A model generated the notes under the pieces. It saw only the letters and a list, made by a program, of their open reading frames with translations, was not told where the DNA came from and did no database searches. Shown piece by piece: positions 11,172 through 26,529 of a stretch of DNA of 64,000 bases. The translations under genes and the position numbers were made by a program. This DNA is from Dyella acidiphila (lineage in GTDB: Bacteria > Pseudomonadota > Gammaproteobacteria > Xanthomonadales > Rhodanobacteraceae): positions 1-64,000 of the forward strand of contig NZ_JACZZA010000008.1 of assembly GCF_014863405.1 (NCBI RefSeq), in the 5' to 3' direction. The number at the start of each line of letters is the position of its first letter. The stretch's first letter is position 1.

Positions 11172-13970
11172 ATGGAAGCCAGTCGCGACCCTGAATTCCT
11201 GCCCCAGGACGGTCCCCTGCGCGAGGACGTACACCGTCTCGGCGCCATGGTGGGGCGCATGCTCGCCGAGCAGGGCGGGGAAGGCTTCTATCAGCGGGTG
11301 GAGCAGGTGCGCACGGCATCCATCCGGCGACGGCGCGAGGGACGCGCGGTAGACGACCTGGCCGAATCGCTGGCCGGCCTGGATGCGGCCGCGGCCGAAT
11401 CGCTGGCTCGCGCCTTCGCGGCCTATTTCCAGGCGGTGAACACTGCCGAGCGCGTGCACCGCATCCGCCGCCGCCGCGACTACCAGCGCGAAGGCAGCAA
11501 GCCGCAGCCCGAGTCGCTGCTGGATGTGATGCAGCGGCTGAAAGAACAGGGTGTCGGTGCGGACGAATTGCTGGAATGGCTGTACAAGCTCAAGGTGGAG
11601 CCGGTCTTCACCGCGCACCCCACCGAAGCGATCCGTCGCTCGCTGCTGGAAAAGGAGCAGGCGATCGTGCGCGCGCTGGTCGACGATTTCGATCCCACCC
11701 GCACGCCGCAGGAACGCAAGGAAGACGACGACCGCATCTTCATGGCCTTGTCCGCGGGCTGGCAGACGGCGGAAGCCTCGCCGATCCGCCCCAGCGTGCA
11801 GGACGAGCATCACCACGTCGGTTTTTATCTGGCCAACCCGATCTACCGCATCGTGCCCGCCTTCTATGAAGTGCTGGCCGACGCGCTGCAGGAAGTTTAT
11901 GGCGTGGCAGTGCCCTTGCCGCGTCTGCTCAGCTTTGCCACCTGGGTCGGCGGCGACATGGACGGCAATCCCAATGTGGGCGCCGAGACCATCGCCAACA
12001 GCCTCGCCACCCAGCGCGCGCACGTGCTGGAGCACTACATCGCCGACATCGATGGTCTTGCGCGCCTGCTGAGCCAGACCGACGACCGCGTCGATTTCGC
12101 TCCCGCGCTGCTGCAACGCCTGGAGTTGTATCGCGAACAGTTTCCGCGCGCCGCCGCGGCGATCCGGCCGCGCCATGCGGACATGCCGTACCGCTGCCTG
12201 CTCACCTTGATGCGCGCACGGCTCGAAGCCACGCTGGAAGAAGGGCATGCGGAAGGCTACGCCTCGGCCGAGGAACTGCTCGACGATCTGCTGCTGATTG
12301 TGCATGGCCTGATCGATCATCGCGGCCTCAACGCTGGCGCGTATGCCGTGCGCCGCTTGATCTGGCGTGTGCGCACTTTCGGCTTCCATCTGGCGCGGCT
12401 GGATGTGCGCCAGGATTCGCGCGTGCACGACGATGCGCTGAGCGCATTGCTGCAGGACGATAGCTGGACGCAACGTGCGCCGGCCAAACGCGTGGTGGTG
12501 CTGCGCCGCTACGCCAGCGGCGAAAAAAGCCTCGAGCGCGTCGACGATGCGCAGGCCGAATCGCTGCGCGCGGTATTCGCTACCCTGCACGAATCGCGTG
12601 GCCGCTACGGCAAGGACGCGATCGGCCTGTACATCATCAGCATGGCGCGCTCGGCAGCCGATGTGCTGGCGGTGCTGGCGCTGGCTAGGCATGGCGGCTT
12701 CGTGTTTGCTCCGTCGCCCCTGCGGGGAGAGGGGGCAGCCTTGCAGGAAGCTTCCGCTCCGCACAGCAGCCCCTCACCCAACCCTCTCACCGAAGGGGAG
12801 AGGGCCAATAGCGTCCCGCTGGATATCGCGCCGCTGTTCGAAACCGTCGACGACCTCAAGAACGCGCCCGACACCCTGCGCGCACTGCTGGATGATCCGG
12901 TCTATCGCGCCCATCTGCGTGCGCGCGACGATCGCCAGTGGGTGATGCTCGGCTATTCCGATAGCGGCAAGGACGGCGGCACGCTGGCCTCGCGCTGGGG
13001 CTTGCAGCGCGCCCAGGTGGAATTGCTGGAAGTGGCGCAGCAGGCCGGCATCCGGCTCGCGTTCTTCCACGGGCGCGGCGGCTCGGCCAGCCGTGGCGGT
13101 GCACGTATCACGCCGGCGCTGATGTCTTCGCCGCGCGGTTCGGTGGCAGGCGTGCTGCGCGTGACCGAGCAGGGCGAAGTCATCCATCGTAAATACGGTA
13201 TCCGCGCGCTGGCGTTGCGCAATCTCGAACAGACGGTCAGTGCGGTGCTGCGCGCCAGCCTGCGCCCGCGCGAAGACGAGCCGCGCGAAGCGGAATGGCG
13301 CGAGCAGATGAGCGCACTGGCGAGCGACAGCCGCCGCGCCTATCGCGAACTGGTCGATCGCGAAGGTTTCGTCGACTACTTCCGCGCTGCCACGCCGATC
13401 GACGTGATCGAACAGATGGCGTTGGGCTCGCGTCCCTCGCGCCGGCGCAGCATGCGCGGTGTGCAGGACCTGCGCGCGATTCCCTGGGTGTTCGCCTGGA
13501 CGCAGTGCCGTTCGATCATTACCGGCTGGTATGGCTTGGGTACGGCGCTGGAGCAGGCGGCCACGCATGGCGAGGCGGCGCTGGTGGAGATGGCGCGCGA
13601 GTGGTCGTTCTTCGCCAACCTGCTCGACGACGTGGAAATGGTGCTGGCCAAATGCGATCTAGATATCGCCGAGGCGTTCTCAAAGCTGTCCGGCCCGCTG
13701 CATGAGTCGTTCTTCACGCTGATCCGCGAAGAATTCGAGCGCACCCGGCATTGGGTGTTGCGCCTGAAGAACAGCCAGGAACTGTTGCGTGACGATCCGC
13801 GCCTGTCCCTGTCGATTCGCCTGCGCAATCCCTATGTCGACCCCATGAGCCTGCTGCAGGTGGATCTGCTGCAACGCTGGCGCGCCACCGATCGCAGCGA
13901 CGACAGCCTGCTGCATGCGCTGGTCGCCTGTGTGAATGGTGTGGCGCAAGGCCTGCAGAACACCGGCTGA
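11172..13970 (+). CDS. ppc: Phosphoenolpyruvate carboxylase
   Basis: Carboxylates PEP to oxaloacetate to refill the TCA cycle; cytoplasmic tetramer. At 932 aa it is somewhat longer than the ~880-900 typical of bacterial enzymes. Active-site blocks are all present: VFTAHPTEA (catalytic His near 152), [15 protein letters not shown], the glycine loop [12 protein letters not shown] and the invariant C-terminal QNTG. AAGGAGG (11161-11167) gives an ideal RBS. The extra length lies around residues 513-547, where a REP-like element is read in frame between [11 protein letters not shown] and [12 protein letters not shown]. Catalytic motifs flank this loop intact, so activity is probably kept. Confidence 0.96.
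12711..12806. repeat. REP-like element inserted in frame in ppc
   Basis: Two palindromic units lie within the ppc reading frame: CCCCTGCGGGG (12717-12727, followed by AGAGGGGG) and CCCTCTC...GAGAGGG (12783-12805). The second has the CACCCAACCCTCTCACC text typical of proteobacterial REP families. It is translated as APSPLRGEG ... [15 protein letters not shown]. The first unit matches the hairpin at 9348-9367. Related PEPCs go straight from the helix to the APLFET strand. Confidence 0.75.
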
Positions 13971-14010
13971 GCCTGCGCCATCCCGCTGGCACGGATGGGG
14001 GCAACAAGCG

Positions 14011-14047
14011 TGTCCGCTTACGCATGCCTGTTGTACGGAAACGGACA
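14011..14047. promoter_or_regulatory. Candidate enhancer (UAS) dyad for the sigma-54 promoter
   Basis: The arms TGTCCGCTTACG (14011-14022) and CGGAAACGGACA (14036-14047) are inverted copies matching at 10 of 12 positions, giving TGTCCGnTTnCG-N13-CGnAAnCGGACA. The centre is about 119 bp upstream of the predicted sigma-54 start, the usual range for NtrC-type enhancer sites. The likely binder is the response regulator encoded at 21110-22516. Confidence 0.6.
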
Positions 14048-14121
14048 GACGTACGCCTCGCCGATGCGCGGGGCGGCGGCAAAGTCACTGATCTGGCGAT
14101 TATTTTTTGTGGCGTGCAACT

Positions 14122-14136
14122 TGGCACGCGGCTTGC
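14122..14136 (+). promoter_or_regulatory. Sigma-54 (RpoN) promoter of the transporter cassette
   Basis: TGGCAC (14122-14127), 5 bp, TTGC (14133-14136) reproduces the RpoN consensus TGGCACG-N4-TTGC exactly, with invariant GG and GC at -24/-12 spacing. Transcription should begin near 14148, one base before the ATG of the first gene. The mRNA would be leaderless or nearly so, in line with the absence of any Shine-Dalgarno. Confidence 0.85.
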
Positions 14137-14148
14137 CATGCAACCTGC

Positions 14149-15402
14149 ATGGATATCGCCAACCCGCTCTACAAAGTTCGCAAGCGCCGCCGGCAGCGCC
14201 TGATCGCAGGCGCCAGCGTGGCTGCCGTGGCGCTGATCGCCTTGCTGGCGCGGCAGCTGGATCCGGCGCTGCCGCAGGTCGAGCGTTCGGGTCTGTGGGT
14301 CGATACCGTGCAGCGCGGCAGCATGCTGCGTGAAGTGAATGCCACTGGCACGCTGGTGCCGCGCGAGATCCGCTGGTTGGCGGCCGCCACGCCGGCCCAG
14401 GTGGAAAAGATCCTGGTGTGGCCCGGCGCTCGCGTTACGCCGGAGACGGTGCTGATGCGGCTGTCCGATCCGGCAGTGGAAGACAATCTGCGCAACGCCC
14501 AGGCCGAAGTCGCCGCGGCGCAGGCGGATGTGGCCGCCAAGCAGGCCGATCTCACTTCGCAGTTGCTGGATGAGCGCTCCGCGCTGTCCCTGGCGCAATC
14601 CGACTACGCGTCGGCCAAGGTCAAGGCCGATGCCGACAGCAAGGCGATGCAGCTGCACGTAATTCCCGAGGTACAGTATCAGCAGGAACAAATTGCGCTG
14701 AAGCAGTTGCAGGCTCATGTGCAGATCGAGCAGCAGCGCGTCGACGCCTTCGCCATGACCATGAAGGCGCAGATGGATGCGGTGCGCGCGAAATTGCTGC
14801 AGCAACGCAGCAATCTGCAATTGCGCCAGCGCCAGGCCGATGCGCTGGATGTGAAGGCGGGCATCGATGGCGTCTTGCAGGAGGTGGCCGTGCAGGAGGG
14901 CGCGCAGGTGGCGGCCGGTGCCAATCTCGCGCGGGTGGCGCGACCCGATGTGCTGATCGCGCGCCTGCAGGTGCCGGAGGTGCAGGCCAAGGACGTCGCC
15001 ATGGGCATGCCAGTCAGCGTGGACACGCATAACGGCGTGGCCGAAGGCAAGGTGGAGCGCATCGATCCGGCGGTTCGCGAGGGGGCGGTGCAGGTCGACG
15101 TCGCGCTACCCGCCAGCCTGCCCGCAGGGGCGCGTCCGGACCTCTCCGTGGACGGCCGCATCTTGATCGCCAAACTCGACGACGTATTGTCGGTGGGGCG
15201 TCCGGCGCTGGCGCGTGCAGAGGGGGACATCAGCTTGTTCCGGCTCGATCCGGCCAACGGCACAGCCCGCCGCGTGGCGGTGCGGATCGGCGCGGTTTCG
15301 GTCGACCGCGTGCAGATCCTGCATGGGCTCAACGCGGGCGACCAGGTGGTGCTGTCCGACGTCAGCCAGTGGGATAAATATGATCGTATCCGCGTGCAGT
15401 AA
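14149..15402 (+). CDS. HlyD/MacA-like periplasmic adaptor protein
   Basis: Membrane-fusion protein of an ABC efflux system, 417 aa. A basic cytoplasmic start (VRKRRRQR) leads to one membrane anchor (about residues 18-35). A lipoyl-like half-motif follows, then a long Ala/Gln-rich coiled coil (about 110-225), the second half VKAGIDGVLQEVAVQEGAQV, and a beta-barrel region to the end. No lipobox is seen. The start is chosen because it places the anchor correctly and sits right at the sigma-54 start site; an upstream in-frame ATG (14107) lies inside the promoter. First gene of a six-gene cassette with ATPase, two permeases and a two-component system. Confidence 0.85.
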   Translation: MDIANPLYKVRKRRRQRLIAGASVAAVALIALLARQLDPALPQVERSGLWVDTVQRGSMLREVNATGTLVPREIRWLAAATPAQVEKILVWPGARVTPETVLMRLSDPAVEDNLRNAQAEVAAAQADVAAKQADLTSQLLDERSALSLAQSDYASAKVKADADSKAMQLHVIPEVQYQQEQIALKQLQAHVQIEQQRVDAFAMTMKAQMDAVRAKLLQQRSNLQLRQRQADALDVKAGIDGVLQEVAVQEGAQVAAGANLARVARPDVLIARLQVPEVQAKDVAMGMPVSVDTHNGVAEGKVERIDPAVREGAVQVDVALPASLPAGARPDLSVDGRILIAKLDDVLSVGRPALARAEGDISLFRLDPANGTARRVAVRIGAVSVDRVQILHGLNAGDQVVLSDVSQWDKYDRIRVQ

Positions 15403-15457
15403 GCGTCGTGCCCATATCCATTGAACTCCTAACCCAGCTGAAAAGATCGGTGAACTT

Positions 15458-16218
<761 letters not shown>

Positions 16219-16222
<4 letters not shown>

Positions 16223-18663
16223 ATGCCGGCTTGAAGGAGATCTGGCTGGCCTGGCGCGCGCTGTGTCGCCGACCCGGCTATCTCCTGCTCGCCTCCGGCG
16301 TGCTGGCGCTGGGCGTCGGCGCGAGCCTGGCGGTCTATGTGCTGATCGAAGCTGTACTGCTGCGGCCGCTGCCGTATCCGCAGGCCTCGCGGCTGGTGCA
16401 ATTGGGGCGGGAACGATCCGGTGTGGCCTACACCACCTCGCCGGTGATTTATCAGCACATGTTGCCCTTGCAGGGCGTGCAGTCCGTGGGCCTGATCCGG
16501 TTTCGCGCCGAGGATGCGAACATCGCGGTGGATGACGTACCGCAATTGCTGCCTGCCGTGCATGCCGACCGGGGTTATCTGGCGACGTTGGGCGTAGCGC
16601 TGACGCTGGGCCGCAATTTCAGCGCGGATGAGGATCGCCCGAACGGGCCCAAGGTCGTGCTGCTCAGTCATGGTTTCTGGCTGCGCCGTTACGGCGGCGA
16701 TGCCTCGGTGCTCGGGCGCAACATGAGCATCGAAGGGGTCAGTCACCAGATCATCGGCGTGCTGCCTGCAGGAGTCGATATCAAGCAAGCCGATCTGTTG
16801 CTGCCGATGGCGTTGCCGGCGGACAGCGAAGACGAAGGCAGGAATTTCTATGTCATCGCACGTCTGGCGCCGGATGTAACGGCGGCGGCCGTAGGCGCGG
16901 AATTCGCCGCGAAAGTGCATGCCATGTATCTGCGCATCGGTGGCGCCGGCGCCAGCTTCGCGGCGCACGAGGCCTTTCGCGCCGACGATCTGCAGACGGC
17001 GATGCGCGTGCGCGCCAGGCCGGTTTTGATGATGTTTCTGGCCAGCGCATCGATGGTGCTGCTGATCGTATTGGTCAACCTCGCCAATCTGATGCTTTTG
17101 CGCAGCATGGCGCGCAGCCACGATGCCGCGGTGCGCGATGCGCTGGGTGCGCCGTGGTTGCGACGCCTGCTGCCGCTGCTCGCCGAGGGTTTGTTGATCG
17201 CCATCGCCGGCACGGTGGCCGGCATGCTGCTGGCGTGGCTGGGCCTGCAGGCGCTGCGCGGGCTGATCCCTGCGGAGTGGCTGGCCGGCAGCAGCCTGCA
17301 AGTACAGGCATCGGCGTATGTGCTGGCCTTGGTACTGGCGCTGACCCTGGTGTCGCTGTCGGTTGCGCTGGGTTTGTGGTGGGGCCTCAAGAATGCGTCG
17401 CCGGATGAACTGCGCGCGGGCGGACGCGGTGGCACGGGGCGTCGTGGTGGCCTGCTGGGGCGCGTGCTGGTAACGGCCCAGGTCGCGCTGGCCAGCACCT
17501 TGCTGTGTGCCGCCGGGGTATTTCTGCATGCGCTATACGATGCGGCACGGGTGCCCCTGGGGTTTTCCAGCGATGGCATTCTTACTTTCGAGCTGGCGCC
17601 GGTGCGTGGCACTTATAGCGATAACGCCGCGATCCAGCGCCTGGCGCAGCAGTTGCTGGATCGGCTGCGCATGCAGCCTGGCGTAGTCCGCGCTACGGCG
17701 GGGACCGGTCTGCCGGCCGGCGATCTGTCGCAGAATTTTTATCTCGGCAGCATCCACGCGCCTGGTCAGGATGTGCCGGATACGGCCACTCCGCAGGTAC
17801 GCGCGGTCGATCCGGATTTCTTCAGCGTGTTCCAGATTCCCGCGCATCAAGGCCGCAGTTTCCAATCCAGCGATCGCAGGGGTGGCGAAGCCGTTGCTAT
17901 CGTCAATCAGCGCCTGGCCGACCAGATGTACGGGGGCGATGCGGTGGGGAAGATGATCGAGATGGGCGCGATTCCATCGCTGGCGCCGCACTCGGCGCGG
18001 ATCGTCGGCGTGATCGATACGATCAGTCCGTTCGGTCCGCTGGGCGATACCGATGGCATTCTGTATCTGCCGCTGGCGCAGATGCCGGACGATCTGATGC
18101 AGATCGTGCGCACCGTCAATCCTTTGCGCTTTGCACTGGCCGTGCATGGCAATCCGGACGACTACCGTCGCATGGTCGGCCGCGTGGTGGCCGAGGTGGC
18201 ACCCAGCCAGCCGGTGTCCCAGTTGCTCAGTATGCGCAGTGTGGTGCGCGAGACTACTGCCGGCACGCGGCTGGACTTGTTGTTGATCGGTCTGTTTGCC
18301 GGCCTGGCCTTGCTGCTTGCAGCCGTGGGCATGTACGCGGTGATGTCGGTGGCGGTAGCCATTCGCGAACGCGAATTCGGCGTGCGCATGGCGCTGGGGG
18401 CTTCGCCAGCGCGGCTGATCGCCGGGATTTTGCGGGCAGGACTGCTGCAAGTGGTGATCGGCTTGTTGGCCGGTTTCGCCCTGGCCTTTATTTTGGCCGG
18501 CTTGCTGCGTGCGGTGCTGTTGCAGATCAATCGCCAGGTATTCGACCTGCCGGTATTGGCGGCGGTGTGTCTCACCCTGGCCTTGTCCGGCCTGCTCGCC
18601 TGCCTGTTGCCGGCCTGGCGTGCGAGCCGGGTGGAACCGACGCGTGCCTTGCGAGGGGAATAG
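16219..18663 (+). CDS. MacB/FtsX-like ABC permease, duplicated (ADOP) type, 1
   Basis: An 814-aa inner-membrane protein with eight predicted membrane segments in two FtsX-like repeats: one near residues 22-45, three between ~272 and 390, one near 412-435 and three between ~685 and 805. Each repeat is separated by a ~230-residue periplasmic MacB-type core domain. The motif EREFGVRMALGASPARLI follows segment six, as in FtsX-domain proteins. The ATG overlaps the ATPase stop by 4 nt. It resembles ADOP-type permeases. MacB-like mechanotransmission (periplasmic substrate to outer membrane) is inferred, not shown. Confidence 0.88.
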
Positions 18664-18666
18664 GCG

Positions 18667-21081
18667 ATGATGATGCGCGAGTTGAGCAGTGCATGGCGGC
18701 GTCTGTGTCGCCGGCCGGGTTACGCGGCGCTGTCGGTGGCGGTACTGGGTATCGGCCTGGGGGCGGTGTTGTTCCTGTTTGGCCTGGTCGACAGCATGGT
18801 GCTGCGGCCGCTGCCGTTCCCGCAGTCGCAGCGCCTGATGGCGATGGGCTATGCCAATCTGGATGGCACCGGCTTGAGCGATATGAGCGCAGCAGAATTT
18901 CTGCCTCTGCGTGCGGGCATGCACAGCTTCGAAAGCTCCGGTGCGTATAGCGAACTGATGGTGGATGTCGATACCGGCACTCGCGCGGTGACGCATGTCG
19001 GCACCCGCGTCTCTGCATCTGTATTGCCCATGCTCGGTGTGCAGCCATTGCTGGGCCGGCTGACGTCCGAGCAGGATGATCAGCCCGGTGCGCCGCTGGT
19101 AGCACTGCTGGGTGAAACGCTGTGGCGACACGATTTCAACGCCGATCCCGCCGTGATCGGCCGCAAGCTGCGCATCAACGGCGAGTGGGCGACGGTGATC
19201 GGTGTACTGCCCAAGACTTTCGCGTTTCCTTTCGTCACGGATATATGGCTACCACAGCCACTGCAGGCGGGCAGCGATCTGGATGTGGAGACCATCGGCC
19301 TGCTCAAGCCTGGGATCTCGCTGGTGCAAGCGCGGGACGAATGGGCGGCACTGGCCAGCCATCTGGGCAGCAGCCTGCGCGGCCAGCGCGCGGGTCGTCA
19401 TCTGGTCATGAAGCCGCTGGTCATGCGATTCATGGATGAGCACATCCGCAGCTACATTTGGTTGATGTTTGCCGCTGGCGTAATGGTGCTGCTGCTGGCC
19501 TGCGCCAACGTGGCCAATCTGCAACTGGTGCAGACGCTCAATCGCGGACGCGAGCTGGCGCTGCGCAGTGCGCTGGGCGCCAGCCAGGGCCGCCTGCTGC
19601 GCGCACAGTGGGCGGAATGCCTGTTGGTGAGCGGGGCCGCCTATGCGGTGGCCTTGCTGATCACGCACTTCGGTTTCCGGTGGTTTGTCGACATGCTGGT
19701 CAGCAACGACACCGCGCCACCGTACTTCCTGCATTTTCGGATCGATCCGCGCCTGTTCGCCTTCGGCGCCATCGCCGCCTTGCTGACCACCGTGCTGGCC
19801 GGCCTGCTGCCCACCTGGCATGTCTCGCGTTCGCAGTTGCAGGATGCGCTGCGCGACGGCGACCGCGCCGTTACCGGCGGCATCTTTGCGCGTACCGCCA
19901 AGGCACTGGTGGTCGTGGAGATCGCCTTTACCGTGATCCTGCTGGTGGGCGCCGGCACCTTTGTGCGCGGCCTGGAACGGGTGCTGGCGCAGCCGATCGG
20001 CAGCGGTTCCGATCCGGCGCATGTACTTACCGCATCGGTACAGCTGCTGCCGGCTTTGTATCCGGACGATGACGCGCAGTTGCGTTATTTCGAGCGGCTG
20101 GCCGAGCGCCTGCGCGCGGCGCCGGGTGTGCTGGATGCCAGCGTGGCCAACACCGTTCCCGATGCAGAGCTGGGCAGCCATGAATTTGTTGCAGCCTATG
20201 GCCAGGCACGCACGGCCGACGGTTATCAGCGCGCGCAGATGGGCGTTGTCGACGAGCACTTCGCCAGTACCTATGGCCTGAAGCTGCTGGCTGGGCGCTT
20301 TTTCGATGTGCAGGATCGCCATCGGCACGAGTTGTTGGCGGTGGTCGACCAGCGGCTGGCGCAGGCTTTGTGGCCCGGACGTAGCGCGGTGGGGCAGCAA
20401 CTGGTACTGCATCCGGAAGATCCGGACCCGCAAACGCTGCAGGTGATCGGCGTAGTGGCGCCGCTGCAGCTCGACGGTACCTTGCAGACCGCGCTGCCCA
20501 GTTTCATGCGGCCGCTGTGGCAGGTACCGCTCAGCTATGCCCGGATTGCCGTGCATACGCGTGAAGCGGCCGTCGCCTATGCGCCGTCGCTGACCCGCAT
20601 GGCTCATGAGCTGGATGCGGCCACCCCGCTTTACGCCTTCCGCACCCAGGCGCATGCCATCGCCATTGCGCGGATCAAGCTCACCATCATGATCCAGGTG
20701 TTCAGCGCGGTCGGCCTGATCGCCCTGATCCTCGCTGCTGCAGGTTTGTATGGCGTGCTCTCCTTTGCGGTAGCGCAGCGTACGCACGAACTCGGCATTC
20801 TCGGCATTCGGCGTGCGATCGGCGCCAGCCATCTGGCCATCGTGGGGCACGTTGGACGGCAATTGGTATTCCAGCTCGGGCTGGGGCTGGCGATCGGCGT
20901 GGGCCTGGCCTTACCCTGGTCGGCCTTGCTGGCCAACGAACAGCTGCATACGCAGGGTTACGATCTGCAGGTATTCGTGCCGGTGCTGGTGGTGATCGTG
21001 CTGGTGGCGATGGGCGCTTCGTTGCTGCCGCTGTGGCGTGCGCTGGCGGTGCAGCCGGTAGTTGCATTGCGCCACGAATGA
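18667..21081 (+). CDS. MacB/FtsX-like ABC permease, duplicated (ADOP) type, 2
   Basis: An 804-aa paralogue of the preceding permease with the same layout: N-terminal WRRLCRRPGYAALSVAVLG anchor, periplasmic core, a membrane triplet near residues 265-400, a second core, and a C-terminal triplet with THELGILGIRRAIGASHLAI. Sequence identity to permease 1 is clearest at the anchors (RRPGY, VLRPLP) and weak elsewhere, so the two probably form a heterodimer rather than a redundant pair. It starts 3 nt after the previous stop. It ends close to the response regulator gene, suggesting one transcript. Confidence 0.88.
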   Translation: MMMRELSSAWRRLCRRPGYAALSVAVLGIGLGAVLFLFGLVDSMVLRPLPFPQSQRLMAMGYANLDGTGLSDMSAAEFLPLRAGMHSFESSGAYSELMVDVDTGTRAVTHVGTRVSASVLPMLGVQPLLGRLTSEQDDQPGAPLVALLGETLWRHDFNADPAVIGRKLRINGEWATVIGVLPKTFAFPFVTDIWLPQPLQAGSDLDVETIGLLKPGISLVQARDEWAALASHLGSSLRGQRAGRHLVMKPLVMRFMDEHIRSYIWLMFAAGVMVLLLACANVANLQLVQTLNRGRELALRSALGASQGRLLRAQWAECLLVSGAAYAVALLITHFGFRWFVDMLVSNDTAPPYFLHFRIDPRLFAFGAIAALLTTVLAGLLPTWHVSRSQLQDALRDGDRAVTGGIFARTAKALVVVEIAFTVILLVGAGTFVRGLERVLAQPIGSGSDPAHVLTASVQLLPALYPDDDAQLRYFERLAERLRAAPGVLDASVANTVPDAELGSHEFVAAYGQARTADGYQRAQMGVVDEHFASTYGLKLLAGRFFDVQDRHRHELLAVVDQRLAQALWPGRSAVGQQLVLHPEDPDPQTLQVIGVVAPLQLDGTLQTALPSFMRPLWQVPLSYARIAVHTREAAVAYAPSLTRMAHELDAATPLYAFRTQAHAIAIARIKLTIMIQVFSAVGLIALILAAAGLYGVLSFAVAQRTHELGILGIRRAIGASHLAIVGHVGRQLVFQLGLGLAIGVGLALPWSALLANEQLHTQGYDLQVFVPVLVVIVLVAMGASLLPLWRALAVQPVVALRHE

Positions 21082-21109
21082 GCACGGCGCTTCCCTTAAA
21101 CTCAGGAGC

Positions 21110-22516
21110 ATGACCCAGGGCATGGCGCGCGAATCGATTCCTACTGTACTGGTGGCCGACGATCAGGCCGATGTGCGCGAAGCCTTGCGCCTGTTGTTGA
21201 AGTCCGAAGGCGTGGCTTGCGTCGGCGCAGCCAGTCCGGCGCAGGCACTGGAAGCCGTCGGCCGGCGCGATTTTACCTGCGCGCTGATCGATGGCAACTA
21301 CAGCCGCGACACCACCTCCGGCGAAGAGGGCCTGGACTTGCTCGAAAGCCTGCGCCGGCAGGCGCCGGACATGCCGGTGGTGATGATGACGGCCTGGGGC
21401 AATGTGCCGCTGGCGGTGCAGGCGATGCGGCGTGGCGCGGCCGACTTTATCGAGAAGCCGTGGGACAACGCGCGCCTGATGAGCGTGTTGCGAGCGCAGA
21501 TCGCCCTGAGCGACAGCACGCGCCGCCAGCGACGGCTGGAGGCGGAGAACGCCTTGCTGCGCGATAGCTCCAGCAGCGAACTGATTGCCGAATCTGCCGC
21601 GATGCGGCGGGTGGTGGCGATGGTCGAGCGCATCGCGCCCAGCGACGCCAACGTGCTGGTGCTGGGCGAAAACGGCACCGGCAAAGGCGTCATTGCGCAG
21701 TACCTGCATCAGCGCTCGGCGCGTGCGGCGCAGGCGCTGGTCAAGGTCAATATGGGCGGTATTGCCGAAAGCGTGTTCGAGTCGGAAATGTTCGGCCATG
21801 TGCGCGGCGCGTATACCGATGCGAAGAGCGAACGCATCGGCCGCTTCGAACTGGCGGACGGCGGCACGCTGTTTCTGGACGAGGTCGGCAATGTACCTGC
21901 GTCGCAGCAGCCGAAGCTGTTGCGCGTGCTGGAAGATGGCGAGTTCGAGCGGCTGGGTTCGTCGCATACCCAGCATGTGAATGTGCGCTTGGTGTCGGCG
22001 ACGAATGCCGATCTGCAGGGCGAAGTGGCGGCGGGCCGCTTCCGTCGCGATCTGCTCTATCGCTTGAATACGTTCGAAGTGAGCTTGCCGCCTTTGCGCG
22101 AGCGAACCGAAGACATCCTGCCGCTGGCGCGCTCGTTCCTGGCGCACAGTGCGCAGCGTTATGGCCGCGCTTCGCTGCGACTGGCGGCGTCGGCCGAGCG
22201 CGCCCTGCAGGGCTGGCATTGGCCGGGCAATGTGCGCGAGCTGCAGCACCTGATGGAACGTGCTGCGTTGCTGGCCGAGCATGACCAGGTCACCGCCGCC
22301 GCGCTTTCCTTCGGCGCGGCACCGGAAGCTGCCCAGACGCTGGACCAGATGACGCTGGACCAGGCCGAGGCCTGGCTGGTCAAGCGGGCGCTGGATCGCT
22401 GCGACGGTAATCTGCAGCATGCGGCGGATGCCTTGGGCATCACGCGCCAGTCGCTGTACCGGCGCATGGCCAAGCATGCATTGCGGGATGTATCCGGTGA
22501 TGCCCAGGTCGGCTGA
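21110..22516 (+). CDS. NtrC-type sigma-54 response regulator
   Basis: A 468-aa protein with receiver, AAA+ and Fis-type HTH domains. The receiver has the acidic pair in VADDQAD, the phospho-acceptor in ALIDGNY, Thr in MMTAWG and Lys in IEKPW. The AAA+ part has Walker A GENGTGKG and Walker B GGTLFLDEVGN; the sigma-54 contact loop reads GAYTDA instead of GAFTGA. The HTH is AADALGITRQSLYRRM. AGGAG lies just before the ATG at 21110; ATG 21122 is an alternative start. As last-but-one gene of the cassette whose promoter is sigma-54 type, it very probably activates its own operon. Confidence 0.9.
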   Translation: MTQGMARESIPTVLVADDQADVREALRLLLKSEGVACVGAASPAQALEAVGRRDFTCALIDGNYSRDTTSGEEGLDLLESLRRQAPDMPVVMMTAWGNVPLAVQAMRRGAADFIEKPWDNARLMSVLRAQIALSDSTRRQRRLEAENALLRDSSSSELIAESAAMRRVVAMVERIAPSDANVLVLGENGTGKGVIAQYLHQRSARAAQALVKVNMGGIAESVFESEMFGHVRGAYTDAKSERIGRFELADGGTLFLDEVGNVPASQQPKLLRVLEDGEFERLGSSHTQHVNVRLVSATNADLQGEVAAGRFRRDLLYRLNTFEVSLPPLRERTEDILPLARSFLAHSAQRYGRASLRLAASAERALQGWHWPGNVRELQHLMERAALLAEHDQVTAAALSFGAAPEAAQTLDQMTLDQAEAWLVKRALDRCDGNLQHAADALGITRQSLYRRMAKHALRDVSGDAQVG

Positions 22517-23861
22517 GCCATCGCGTCGCATCGGGCGCCTGCAGCGCTTCGAGCGTCGCGTGCTGGGCGGCAGCGTGCTGGTCGTGCTGCCTTCGCTATT
22601 GGTGCTGCTGCTGTCGCCGTGGTGGGCCGGTCGCCTCACTACCGGCACGTATCTGCTGGGTGCCGTTGTCGTGTTGGTGATGACTGCATGGCTGGCGCGC
22701 GTACATTCGCGCCGCGTGACGTATCCGGTCTACACCTTGTTCAGTCTGCTGGAGGCCTTGCGCGAAGGCGACTACAGCTTGCGCGGTGTGCAAAACAGCG
22801 TGCTGGGCGAGGTGGTGTACAACGTCAACGAACTGGCCGCGCGGCTGCAGCAGGAGCGGCTCGATTTCGAGGAAGCCTCGCACCTGCTGAGCAAGACGCT
22901 GGCGGCGCTGGACAGCGCCGTGTTCGTGTTCGACGAAGAACAGCGGTTGCGCTTGCTCAATCCCGCCGCCGAAGCGCTGTTGGATGCGCCGCGCGAGCGC
23001 TTGTTCGGCCGTCGTGCGGAAGAACTTGGCCTGGCCGGCTGGCTGGAGGAGCCGGCCACGCGCGTGCTGCCGCACACGTTTCCCGGCCGCAGCGGCCGTT
23101 TCGAGATCCGCCAGGCGCTGTTGCGCAGCGGTGGCCGGCGCAGCCGCCTGCTGGTGATCAATGATGTCGGCCGCGTGCTGCGCGATGAAGAGCGCCAGGC
23201 ATGGCAGCGCTTGCTGCGCGTGCTGGGGCACGAGGTCAACAACTCCCTGACGCCGATTCGTTCCATGGCCGGCACGCTCGCCAGCCTGGCGACGCGCGAG
23301 CCGTTGCCGGATGACTGGCGCGAGGACTTCCAGCGCGGACTGGAAGTGATCGGCCAGCGCGCCTCGTCGCTGACGCGTTTTCTCGCCAGCTACAGCACGC
23401 TGGCGCGCCTGCCTGCACCGCAGTCGCACGAGCTGGAGCTGGGGGCCTTGATCCAGGGCATCGTGCGGTTGGAGCAGCGCATGGCGGTGCAGGTGGAAAC
23501 CGCCGAGCCCTTGCATGTACATGCCGATCAGGACCAGCTGGAGCAGGCGCTGATCAATCTATTGCGCAACGCGGTGGAAGCGGTGCTGCCCGAAGGCGGT
23601 GGTGTGGCAGTGCGCTGGCGGCGCGACGGCGACAAGGCGGTGATCGAAATCGACGACGACGGCCCCGGACCGCCGCCCAGCGATAACCTGTTCGTGCCGT
23701 TTTTCACCACCAAGCCCGGCGGCTCCGGCATCGGCCTCGCGCTGGCGCGGCAGATCGCCGAGGCGCACGGCGGCGGTGCGAATCTGCTGGCCCGGTCCGG
23801 CGGTGCCGGTGCACGGGCCAGTCTGTGGCTGCCGCTGGAGGTCCGGCCCGCGTCGCCATGA
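22500..23861 (+). CDS. Membrane histidine kinase, partner of the NtrC-type regulator
   Basis: A 453-aa sensor with two N-terminal membrane segments (about 18-38 and 45-62) separated by only a few residues, so it has almost no periplasmic domain. A HAMP/linker region and a PAS-like domain (LDSAVFVFDEEQRLRLLNPAAEALL) follow. The H-box is LGHEVNNSLTPI; the ATPase has the N-box NLLRNAVEAV and G-boxes DDDGPGPP and GGSGIGLALA. The start at 22500 overlaps the regulator gene by 17 nt; 22488 is possible. The short sensor region suggests it reads membrane state or the transporter itself, as BceS-like kinases do. Confidence 0.88.
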   Translation: MPRSAEPSRRIGRLQRFERRVLGGSVLVVLPSLLVLLLSPWWAGRLTTGTYLLGAVVVLVMTAWLARVHSRRVTYPVYTLFSLLEALREGDYSLRGVQNSVLGEVVYNVNELAARLQQERLDFEEASHLLSKTLAALDSAVFVFDEEQRLRLLNPAAEALLDAPRERLFGRRAEELGLAGWLEEPATRVLPHTFPGRSGRFEIRQALLRSGGRRSRLLVINDVGRVLRDEERQAWQRLLRVLGHEVNNSLTPIRSMAGTLASLATREPLPDDWREDFQRGLEVIGQRASSLTRFLASYSTLARLPAPQSHELELGALIQGIVRLEQRMAVQVETAEPLHVHADQDQLEQALINLLRNAVEAVLPEGGGVAVRWRRDGDKAVIEIDDDGPGPPPSDNLFVPFFTTKPGGSGIGLALARQIAEAHGGGANLLARSGGAGARASLWLPLEVRPASP

Positions 23862-23983
23862 CCGGCCGGCGTGCCGCACGCCGGTACGCCGATATTCGGA
23901 CACCGTTGGCCGCGCCGGACCTTGCCTGGCTTTTTGCCGAACCGCTACGCTGGCGTGGATTTCCCTAGCGAACCGATTCGAGC

Positions 23984-24601
23984 ATGGACCCCGCAAACAA
24001 GCCCCGCCTTCGCCCGCTGTCGATTCTTATCTTTGGCTCCCGCTGGCTGCAGTTGCCGCTGTATCTGGGCCTGATCGTGGCGCAGTGCGTCTACGTCTAC
24101 CTGTTCGCCAAAGAACTGTGGCATCTGATCCACGAAGCATCGTCGCTGGGCGAACAGGAGATCATGCTGATCGTGCTCGGCCTGATCGACGTGGTGATGA
24201 TTTCCAATCTGTTGATCATGGTGATTGTCGGCGGCTACGAAACCTTCGTGTCGCGCCTTGGACTGGACGGCCATCCGGATCAGCCCGAATGGCTGTCGCA
24301 TGTGAACGCCTCGGTGCTGAAGGTGAAGCTGGCGATGGCGATCATCGGCATCTCGTCGATCCATCTGCTGAAAACATTCATCGCCGCCGGCACACTGCAA
24401 GGCCTGCCGTTCTGCTCGTCCGAAATGCTGGCCACCATCGCACAGAGCGACGGCAACGGCGCCATGCTCAAATGCGCCACGCTCACACCCACCGGGGTGA
24501 TGTGGCAGACGATCATCCACGTGGTCTTCATCGTGTCGGCGATCGGCATTGCCTGGACCGATCGCGTGATGCAGGGTACGGCCGAAAAAAGCGCCCACTA
24601 A
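23984..24601 (+). CDS. UPF0114 (YqhA-like) membrane protein
   Basis: A 205-aa inner-membrane protein of the UPF0114/TIGR00645 family. It has hydrophobic segments near residues 22-42, 62-85, 115-138 and 165-188 and the family text [21 protein letters not shown]. Two cysteines in the loop after segment three (FCSSE, LKCAT) may pair. The molecular function of the family is unknown. The start at 23984 gives the expected cytoplasmic lead ([20 protein letters not shown]). It follows the histidine kinase by 122 bp on the same strand and converges with uup. Confidence 0.88.
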
Positions 24602-24648
24602 GCCCGCATGCTTGTGGTTCGCCCCGGCGTGGCCGGGGCGCCAGGGTT

Positions 24649-26529
24649 TCAGCTGTCCAGCTCCGACCAGCGCGCGTAAGCCTGGTCCAACTCGGCCTGC
24701 ACCTTGGCCAGCGCTTCGTTCGCGCGCTGGATCGCCGCATTGTCCTGCTGGTAGAAGGACGGGTCGTTCATCGCTTCGGCGCGGGCGGAGACATCCGCTT
24801 CGAGCTGTTCGATACGCGCAGGCAGTTGCTCGAGTTCGCGCGCGTCCTTGTAGCTGAGTTTGCGCTTGGGCTTTTCGCTCTCGACTGGCGTGGCGGAAGA
24901 CGCGGCGGCTTTTTCCGGCGCCGCCGATGCAACTGCTTCAGTGCCCCACCGCACGGCCGGTTTCTGCCGCAGCCAGTCGCTGTAGCCGCCGACGTATTCG
25001 CCGACCTGGCCGGCGCCTTCCAGCACCAGCGTGCTCGACACTACGTTGTCGAGGAATTCGCGGTCGTGCGACACCAGCAGCAAGGTGCCCTTGTATTCGG
25101 TCAGCAATTCTTCCAGCAGCTCCAGCGTCTCCACGTCGAGATCGTTGGTGGGTTCGTCCATCACCAGCAGGTTGGACGGCTGCGCGAACAGCTTGGCCAG
25201 CAGCAGGCGATTGCGTTCGCCGCCGGACAGGCGCGTGATCGGAGCGCGTGCGCGTTCGGGCGAGAACAGGAAATCCTGCAGATAACCGATGATGTGTTTG
25301 CGCTGCCCGTTGAGCTCGATGTACTCGCGACCTTCGGCCACGTTGTCGAGCGCATTCAGTGCGTCGTTGAGCTGGGCGCGGTGCTGGTCGAAATAAGCGA
25401 TCTGCAGGCCGGTGCCGAGAGTGACCTCGCCGCGTTGCGGCTTCAGTTCGCCCAGCAGGATTTTCAGCAAGGTGCTCTTGCCCGCGCCGTTCGGGCCGAT
25501 GATGCCGACGCGATCGCCGCGCATGATGCTGGTGCTGAGGTCGTCGATCAGCACGCGGCCGCCGAAGGCCTGGTGCACGTGTTCCAGTTCAATCACCTTC
25601 TTGCCCGATGCCTGCGCATTGGCCAGCGCCATCTTGGCGTTGCCGCTCAATTCGCGCCGCTCGGAACGTTCGCGCCGCAGGGCCTTCAAGGCGCGCACGC
25701 GGCCTTCGTTGCGCGTGCGGCGCGCCTTGATGCCCTGGCGAATCCACACTTCTTCCTGCGCGAGTTTCTTGTCGAACAAAGCATTGGCCTGCGCTTCGGC
25801 GTGCAGGCGTTCTTCGCGGCGGCGCAGGTAATTGTCGTAATCGCCCGGCCAGCTGGTGAGCTGGCCGCGATCGATTTCCACGATGCGCGTAGCCAGCGCA
25901 CGCAGAAAACCGCGGTCATGCGTGACGAAGACAATGCTGCCTTCGAATTGCTTGAGAAAACCTTCCAGCCAATCGATCGCTTCAATATCAAGATGGTTGG
26001 TGGGTTCGTCCAGCAACAGCACCCCGGGCTTGCGCACCAATGCCTGCGCCAGCAGCACACGACGCTTCATGCCGCCGGACAGCGCGGCGAAATCCGTATC
26101 GGCCGGCAATTCCAGCTTGGTGAGCACATCGCTGACGCGACGATCCAGATCCCAGCCATGCTGCGCTTCGATCTGATTCTGCACATCGCCGAGTGCTTCG
26201 AAGTCGCCTTCTGCCAGCAGGTGGTGATAGCGCGCAAGCAAATGGCCAAGATCGCCGAGCCCGTCGGCAACGACATCGAAGACGCTGCCCGCAGTGGCCT
26301 GCGGCACCTCCTGCGCCATGCGTGCCACCACCACGCCGTTCTGCACGCGTACTTCGCCGTCGTCGGCATGCAGCTCGCCGGCGATCAGCTTCATCAGGGT
26401 GGATTTGCCTTCGCCGTTGCGGCCGACGATGCAGACGCGCTCGTTCGCTTCGATCGACAGATCGACATGTTCGAGCAGGAGGGGGCCGCCGACGCTGAAG
26501 TCGACACGCTGGAGTTGGATCAGGGACAT
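24649..26529 (-). CDS. uup: ABC-F ATPase Uup
   Basis: Soluble ABC-F protein acting on ribosomes or branched DNA intermediates, not a transporter. The 626-aa protein has two ATPase domains: Walker A GRNGEGKST with LSGGMKRR and LLLDEPTNHLD, then Walker A GPNGAGKST with LSGGERNR and LVMDEPTNDLD. They are joined by the charged linker RRTRNEGRVRALKALRRER. The C-terminal coiled coil (about 555-626) is the Uup-specific DNA-binding tail, which separates it from EttA/YheS. No TM segment is present. A 259-bp gap separates its start from the divergent carboxypeptidase gene. Confidence 0.93.
   Translation of the reverse strand: MSLIQLQRVDFSVGGPLLLEHVDLSIEANERVCIVGRNGEGKSTLMKLIAGELHADDGEVRVQNGVVVARMAQEVPQATAGSVFDVVADGLGDLGHLLARYHHLLAEGDFEALGDVQNQIEAQHGWDLDRRVSDVLTKLELPADTDFAALSGGMKRRVLLAQALVRKPGVLLLDEPTNHLDIEAIDWLEGFLKQFEGSIVFVTHDRGFLRALATRIVEIDRGQLTSWPGDYDNYLRRREERLHAEAQANALFDKKLAQEEVWIRQGIKARRTRNEGRVRALKALRRERSERRELSGNAKMALANAQASGKKVIELEHVHQAFGGRVLIDDLSTSIMRGDRVGIIGPNGAGKSTLLKILLGELKPQRGEVTLGTGLQIAYFDQHRAQLNDALNALDNVAEGREYIELNGQRKHIIGYLQDFLFSPERARAPITRLSGGERNRLLLAKLFAQPSNLLVMDEPTNDLDVETLELLEELLTEYKGTLLLVSHDREFLDNVVSSTLVLEGAGQVGEYVGGYSDWLRQKPAVRWGTEAVASAAPEKAAASSATPVESEKPKRKLSYKDARELEQLPARIEQLEADVSARAEAMNDPSFYQQDNAAIQRANEALAKVQAELDQAYARWSELDS

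Follow-up and report, generated by a model that had tools for sequence, protein, structure and literature searches.

A predicted sigma-54 promoter at the start codon of a MacA-MacB-like transporter operon in Dyella acidiphila and its relatives

In the soil bacterium Dyella acidiphila (family Rhodanobacteraceae, order Lysobacterales), the first 64,000 nucleotides of contig NZ_JACZZA010000008.1 (assembly GCF_014863405.1), the whole stretch analyzed here and called the window, contain a six-gene cassette on the plus strand with the parts of an ATP-binding cassette (ABC) transporter and of a two-component system. The first gene (14149..15402) encodes, by its domain matches (HlyD_3/RND_mfp), a HlyD/MacA-like periplasmic adaptor of 417 residues, probably translated from a leaderless mRNA. 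It is followed by an ABC ATPase of 254 residues similar to LolD, MacB, and DarD (15458..16222), two duplicated permeases of the FtsX/MacB type, permease A (16219..18663, 814 residues) and permease B (18667..21081, 804 residues), an NtrC-type response regulator of 468 residues (21110..22516), and a histidine kinase (22500..23861) with 453 residues from its likely start and two transmembrane helices joined by a very short loop. Each permease has two MacB_PCD and two FtsX stretches, and the regulator consists of a receiver domain, a Sigma54_activat (AAA+) domain, and a Fis-type helix-turn-helix domain (HTH_8). The adaptor and ATPase genes are 55 nucleotides apart, the ATPase gene overlaps that of permease A by 4, the two permease genes are separated by 3, permease B and the regulator by 28, and the regulator and kinase overlap by 17. 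For the adaptor, ATG 14149 is very probably the start; TTG 14107, where the open frame offers its first start codon, is upstream of the promoter. Translation of the regulator begins at ATG 21110, preceded by CAGGAG, and that of the kinase probably at ATG 22500. There is no outer-membrane partner gene within the cassette; the genome has 37 matches to the OEP domain (PF02321), one of them weak and inside a paralogous adaptor, and it encodes RpoN (G000:C11:62703). The original prediction for this region had named the same six families in head-to-tail order with overlaps or short gaps, a kinase with almost no periplasmic domain, a missing outer-membrane partner, one RpoN promoter, and a distal dyad, and all of these were recovered.

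The predicted -24/-12 element of sigma-54, TTGGCACGCGGCTTGCC, lies at 14121..14137 on the plus strand. In the usual sigma-54 geometry the C of the GC is at -12, which places the predicted +1 at 14148, 1 nucleotide before the adaptor ATG. A sigma-54 match alone is not rare, as the window holds 32 matches with up to two mismatches against 45 expected; the site goes beyond chance because its position is conserved in adaptor genes of related genomes. In 46 of 48 adaptor genes a strict site, TGGCA[CT]N6TGC, lies 26 to 28 nucleotides before the ATG; counted from the first T of TGG to the A of ATG, the distance is -27 in 33 genes, -28 in 7, and -26 in 6. At these loci, 380 starts of other gene families had no strict site at that position, and of 200,000 random places 20 had one. 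As a holdout, 20 further regulator loci were taken, some of them from close relatives of the earlier genomes. Nine had an adaptor, and in seven of these the strict site was at -27 or -28. With the usual geometry, therefore, the predicted +1 falls 0 to 2 nucleotides before the ATG.

This conserved spacing makes it probable that the adaptor mRNA is leaderless. ATG 14149 is taken as the true start because codons 2 and 3 vary synonymously, in-frame stops lie 6 to 12 nucleotides upstream with no start codon between (L047, L052, L058, and L157), Met1-Asp2 is invariant across 41 aligned adaptors, and a Shine-Dalgarno-like word (GGAG, GAGG, or AGGA) precedes the adaptor ATG in only 1 of 48 genes, in contrast to the CAGGAG of the window regulator. 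The fixed distance between site and ATG is not mere identity by descent, since the 11 to 12 nucleotides from the -12 element to the ATG are hardly conserved, the last base excepted. We also considered five adaptor relatives outside the order, setting aside the paralog type L223. In G542, G349, and G427 the strict site is about 50 nucleotides upstream of the expected start, and none was found upstream of L218 and L222. In G788, also outside the order, a strict site lies 50 nucleotides before ATGGATATC. Because these outside sites sit behind leaders, the loss of the leader looks like a derived state within the order. A genome-wide search of 61 genomes for a sigma-54 site followed by 10 to 13 nucleotides and ATG commonly gave several matches more than the backward control; the pattern was too unspecific to tell whether the arrangement is shared by other genes.

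The distal dyad consists of two candidate regulator-binding palindromes on the plus strand. The proximal one, TGTACGGAAACGGACA (14032..14047), differs from TGTCCG-N4-CGGACA by one mismatch, and the distal one, TGTCCGCTTACGCATG (14011..14026), is degenerate, with three mismatches. Upstream of 35 of 47 adaptors, where about 0.75 would be expected, there is a palindrome with up to two mismatches, and often another copy follows 20 to 22 bp further up. Its distance to the ATG varies by tens of nucleotides, against 2 for the sigma-54 site. A word resembling the binding site of integration host factor (IHF), with up to one mismatch, is present in 22 of 48 adaptor upstream regions against about 1.5 expected; for both motifs, expectations came from mononucleotide shuffles. 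Searched for across the whole genome, the palindrome with up to two mismatches was of no use alone, with 337 matches on each strand and 360 in the control.

The sequence features of an enhancer-dependent sigma-54 operon are thus present: the -24/-12 element, upstream palindromes, an activator with an L1 loop, and rpoN in the genome. Both the receiver aspartate and the Walker A motif are retained in the window regulator, whose loop reads GAYTDA, where NtrC1 and NifA have GAFTGA. Among 77 regulators inspected (19, 38, and 20), 69 have GA[FY]TDA, so it would be too wide to say that all cassette regulators have this loop. The other eight, all from genus g11, lack six residues covering the sigma-54-contact loop, and in seven of them glutamate replaces aspartate in the Walker B stretch. 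At these eight loci no adaptor was found by BLAST or with a profile built from the 41 adaptors, which does find the three positive controls. No strict or loose sigma-54 site was found within 400 nucleotides of nine ATPase-like open reading frames at seven of the loci, and none of the eight has a strict site on the regulator strand within 11.7 kb upstream. That loop, adaptor, and promoter are missing together speaks for a tie between this regulator and sigma-54. Strict motifs do occur on the regulator strand 11.8 to 16.0 kb upstream in five of the eight (L279, L281, L284, L286, and L287), well beyond the run of ATPase, permeases, and regulator. A simple hydropathy scan gave a loop of 1 to 17 residues between the kinase helices in 28 of 37 kinases (that of the window and 27 of 36 others); in the other nine it found no second helix near the first. 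By analogy with Bce systems, so short a loop speaks for a signal perceived within the membrane or by way of the transporter.

We investigated the gene order in 64 regions (25 and 39), using BLAST with the window proteins for annotation. The count excludes nineteen in which the adaptor, the cassette-type regulator, or both were not in the fetched stretch; the paralog in the Dyella genome itself is among them. The remaining 45 loci, from 45 genomes, hold an adaptor and a regulator, and in 43 of them the two are on the same strand and enclose the permeases. Only G040, with regulator and kinase divergent, and G271, with a divergent adaptor, depart from this. Order was judged by gene starts, since sorting frames by the upstream stop displaced the ATPase in 3 of the 43, where the actual order is adaptor, ATPase, permeases, and regulator. 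The check proposed with the original prediction, conservation of the six-gene order together with the RpoN site, therefore turned out positive, with a permease number that varies. There is one permease in 8 of the 43 loci, two in 13, three in 13, and four in 3, and larger arrays have five (2 loci), seven (2), eight (1), and thirteen (1). The largest array, G019:C1:373000-413600, has its thirteen duplicated permeases in one collinear run. In G027:C1 (L047:17046) an extra duplicated permease lies upstream of the cassette promoter on the same strand. Other genes found in or beside the permease arrays of relatives encode a repeat protein weakly matching Chlam_PMP (L048:7966-9843), a TraB/PrgY/GumN family protein (L055:11144-12310), and a protein of 252 residues with no Pfam match (L046:6635-7390).

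The cassette is patchily distributed. At E values up to 3e-138 and at least 50% identity, a regulator ortholog is present in 93 of 299 genomes from the order Lysobacterales, the loop-less ones included, and at E 1e-105 a regulator match occurs in 8 of 369 genomes of the class, the Dyella genome included. Within the genus, permease B is itself patchy, with matches of at least 51% in G005, G012, G014, and G015 of 15 others. In close cassettes from other genera of the family, identities are about 65 to 77% for the adaptor, 86 to 91% for the ATPase, 68 to 82% for the regulator, and about 43 to 56% for the permeases, and among 16 such permeases the periplasmic parts (42 to 44%) diverge more than the FtsX parts (53 to 60%). 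The window cassette is flanked by a PEP carboxylase gene on one side and a UPF0114 gene on the other, with an ABC-F gene as a further neighbor, and these recur at several relatives. Depending on the genome, the cassette lies on either side of UPF0114 (the window, 11172-26529, compared with G014, G015, G024, and G036), and several cassettes are near the PEP carboxylase or ABC-F gene. The variable side suggests, from gene positions, repeated insertion, loss, or local inversion. Downstream of the kinase, a terminator-like stem followed by a T run (23914..23930, plus strand) is a weak candidate, as there are 7 such sites against 6.3 in shuffles of the region.

Structure prediction gave a permease model of two fused MacB-like halves, with eight long transmembrane-type helices in two repeats. 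The closest whole-length fold is YbbP, and other fold matches include LolCDE and FtsX; resistance-nodulation-division (RND) pumps among the matches were set aside for their low TM-scores. The original prediction had treated permeases A and B, which are about 31% identical, as a permease pair. This was not borne out: each permease is already a unit of two halves, and eight collinear cassettes manage with one, so that A and B are probably alternatives using a common ATPase and adaptor.

Duplicated permeases also occur away from cassettes. Among the matches listed, we picked 35 such orphan permeases without an ATPase of their own; two are odd: L261 starts at residue 265, and L259 is a neighbor of the G019 cassette on the opposite strand. 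For 19 of the 35, the 320 nucleotides upstream contain a strict sigma-54 site, against 1.2% of random windows of the same size, and upstream of 10 of the 35 there is a relaxed palindrome, a figure given without a control. The sigma-54 sites thus suggest, at the level of promoter sequence, a regulon. An orphan permease in the Dyella genome (G000:C21, promoter near 305070-305210) is 50% identical to permease A and has both a palindrome and a sigma-54 site upstream. Here an ATG 27 nucleotides after the T of TGG opens a frame of 46 codons, MTMANPLYR..., which resembles the adaptor start MDIANPLYK... and whose stop overlaps the permease start. This gene looks like what is left of a cassette that would have lost its adaptor and ATPase and kept the promoter and the coupling. 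The same genome has a paralogous operon (G000:C11:84500-102550; L126 and L127) with an adaptor of 26% and an ATPase of 55% identity, a regulator with GAYTGA, a kinase, and a sigma-54 site with an ordinary leader. In the place of the permeases are ten open reading frames of 410 to 511 residues, eight of which match the window permeases by BLAST; the two that were tested both have FtsX and MacB_PCD domains. The operon looks like an unfused sister of the duplicated-permease array.

Several known systems share parts with the cassette. As in the macrolide/peptide efflux pump MacAB-TolC, the window adaptor is MacA-like and is predicted to have a full hairpin able to reach TolC. However, MacB is a single polypeptide of an ATPase and a permease with four transmembrane helices, whereas here ATPase and permease are separate genes, the permease is duplicated with eight transmembrane-type helices, and one to thirteen permeases are under sigma-54/NtrC-type control. 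YbbAP of Escherichia coli differs in having 12% identity, and the cassette adds an adaptor, a two-component system, and permease arrays. The ADOP family (NCBIfam TIGR03434), duplicated permeases first named from Acidobacteria and described as having no adjacent ATPase, matches both window permeases nearly end to end, with permease B (629.6 bits) above and permease A (599.6 bits) just below the cut-off of 622.3 bits. Unlike ADOP, the window permeases lie beside an adaptor and an ATPase whose gene overlaps that of permease A. The peptide-sensing BceAB-RS module likewise has a two-helix kinase without an extracellular sensor domain, but its response regulator is OmpR-type, while the cassette has an NtrC-type regulator, two MacB-like periplasmic domains, and an adaptor. 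The darobactin exporter DarBCD has the same component types, but the cassette comes with a two-component system, and scores are far under the curated NCBIfam cut-offs (25 to 29 against 700 for DarB with the permeases, 45 against 450 for DarC with the adaptor, and 244 against 375 for DarD with the ATPase).

A 2025 study (PMC12316311) reports enrichment of sigma-54 motifs for COG0577 FtsX-like permeases, also in gammaproteobacteria, and terms this the first evidence. The link is statistical, at the level of the COG; the passages concerned describe no operon, array, orphan regulon, or spacing between promoter and start, and the word "leaderless" does not occur in the main text. A study of transcription start sites in Bradyrhizobium (PMC4842269) describes an extended -10 motif upstream of leaderless genes and says that no specific promoters had been described for such genes. 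Studies of Sinorhizobium and Caulobacter report both leaderless start sites and RpoN motifs, so that single leaderless RpoN genes are possible there. A link to a Cupriavidus zinc ABC transporter (PMC7912956) was dropped, as that transporter is of a different type. The literature searched yielded no account of this operon, of arrays with a variable permease number, of a regulon of orphans, or of a leaderless sigma-54 promoter conserved throughout the order.

With moderate confidence, we read the cassette as an autoregulated MacA-MacB-like (type VII) ABC exporter, encoded by a leaderless sigma-54 operon, with alternative permeases sharing one ATPase and adaptor. The original prediction, a self-inducing efflux or envelope-repair pump, is a proposal that the comparisons support in part; it did not include the absent leader, the varying permease number, or the orphans. 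The genes, their order, the promoter position, the palindromes, and the predicted folds come from sequence and comparison. For the leaderless start, RpoN dependence, permease sharing, the signal, and the substrate, we infer the following. The kinase, almost without a periplasmic part, may sense that the membrane or the transporter has changed and would then phosphorylate the NtrC-type regulator. The regulator would bind the paired palindromes (14011-14047) and drive sigma-54 RNA polymerase at 14121-14137. The transcript would begin about 1 base before the adaptor ATG, and the adaptor would be translated from leaderless mRNA; the rest of the operon, including regulator and kinase, would be on the same transcript, giving positive feedback. 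Adaptor and ATPase would be the common parts, each permease of about 800 residues, as a fused pseudo-dimer, would make up a complete transporter together with two copies of the ATPase, and A and B would be alternatives with different substrates instead of two halves of one channel. Orphan permeases with the same type of promoter would probably join the cassette ATPase and adaptor in trans, and the adaptor would reach a TolC-type channel encoded elsewhere. The likeliest job would be removal of diverse envelope-active compounds made by competitors, a preference based on the MacA-like adaptor and on how numerous and fast-changing the permeases are. In its widest form, this reading holds that throughout the order a sigma-54 promoter became fused to the start codon, so that the leaderless mRNA is enhancer-dependent, and that this promoter heads a plug-in regulon in which adaptor and ATPase serve arrays of up to thirteen permeases as well as orphans. 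We put it forward tentatively, with its chances leaning slightly toward the negative.

Several observations weigh against this picture. Two of the 48 adaptors have no site at the conserved position, the paralog L127 in the same genome, whose site at -60 leaves a leader, and G060, which is 36% identical and lacks a strict site, and two of the nine holdout adaptors, G101 and G095, have imperfect sites at -26; a claim that every relative in the order is leaderless would therefore be too wide. The window's own adaptor upstream region has no IHF-like site with up to one mismatch. Regulator and kinase occur away from any adaptor in the fetched stretch in G047:C12, G056:C21, G064, G096, and G039:C1b. 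A second ATPase gene lies near the regulator in 10 of 45 loci, so that sharing need not be one-to-many everywhere, and a strict sigma-54 site is absent upstream of 16 of the 35 orphan permeases. The whole-model root mean square deviation to YbbP is large (11.6 Å, with a Foldseek TM-score of 0.41). Finally, the loci are related, some closely, and the counts are not of independent events.

Among other explanations, the permeases could serve envelope upkeep, moving lipids or lipoproteins as LolCDE or YbbAP do and answering envelope damage instead of a compound. The fold matches to YbbP, LolCDE, and FtsX fit this; however, the MacA-like adaptor with its full hairpin, the number and divergence of the permeases, which better fit varied substrates, and the patchy presence in the order make it unlikely. 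Rather unlikely as well is export of a self-made product, a peptide or lipid natural product, by a darobactin-transporter-like cassette whose kinase tunes export to production. DarC, DarD, and, weakly, DarB are among the nearest curated names for adaptor, ATPase, and permease, but all three scores are far below their cut-offs, and the neighbors are the PEP carboxylase, UPF0114, and ABC-F genes, with no search aimed at biosynthetic clusters. It would also be possible for the -24/-12 element to be used and the mRNA to have a leader, either because an upstream promoter makes the translated transcript or because the start is displaced; the predicted +1 is read from sequence, and sigma-54 start sites can shift by a few nucleotides. 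The tight spacing between site and ATG over the order, set against the loose spacing of the palindromes, the Shine-Dalgarno-like word in a single adaptor gene, and the variable sequence after the -12 element make this improbable. That permeases A and B form one obligate heteromer, as their adjacency and 31% identity might suggest, is very improbable given the single-permease cassettes, the odd permease number in 26 of 43 collinear cassettes, and the two halves within each permease.

If the autoregulated exporter with a leaderless sigma-54 operon is real, it would bring together enhancer-dependent transcription by sigma-54 and leaderless translation, which are rarely linked. A sigma-54 promoter that apparently starts RNA almost at the first codon is unusual. 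Such an operon would stay tightly shut off before activation, and its translation would then proceed without a Shine-Dalgarno site, perhaps, as a speculation, with an advantage for leaderless translation under stress-altered ribosomes. The natural joint loss of the sigma-54-contact loop and the promoter offers a ready-made genetic control, and the kinase is a possible reporter for the inducer. ATPase-less duplicated permeases would then have a testable reason, as satellites of a shared engine, and a plug-in regulon would account for the existence of these duplicated "orphan" permeases.

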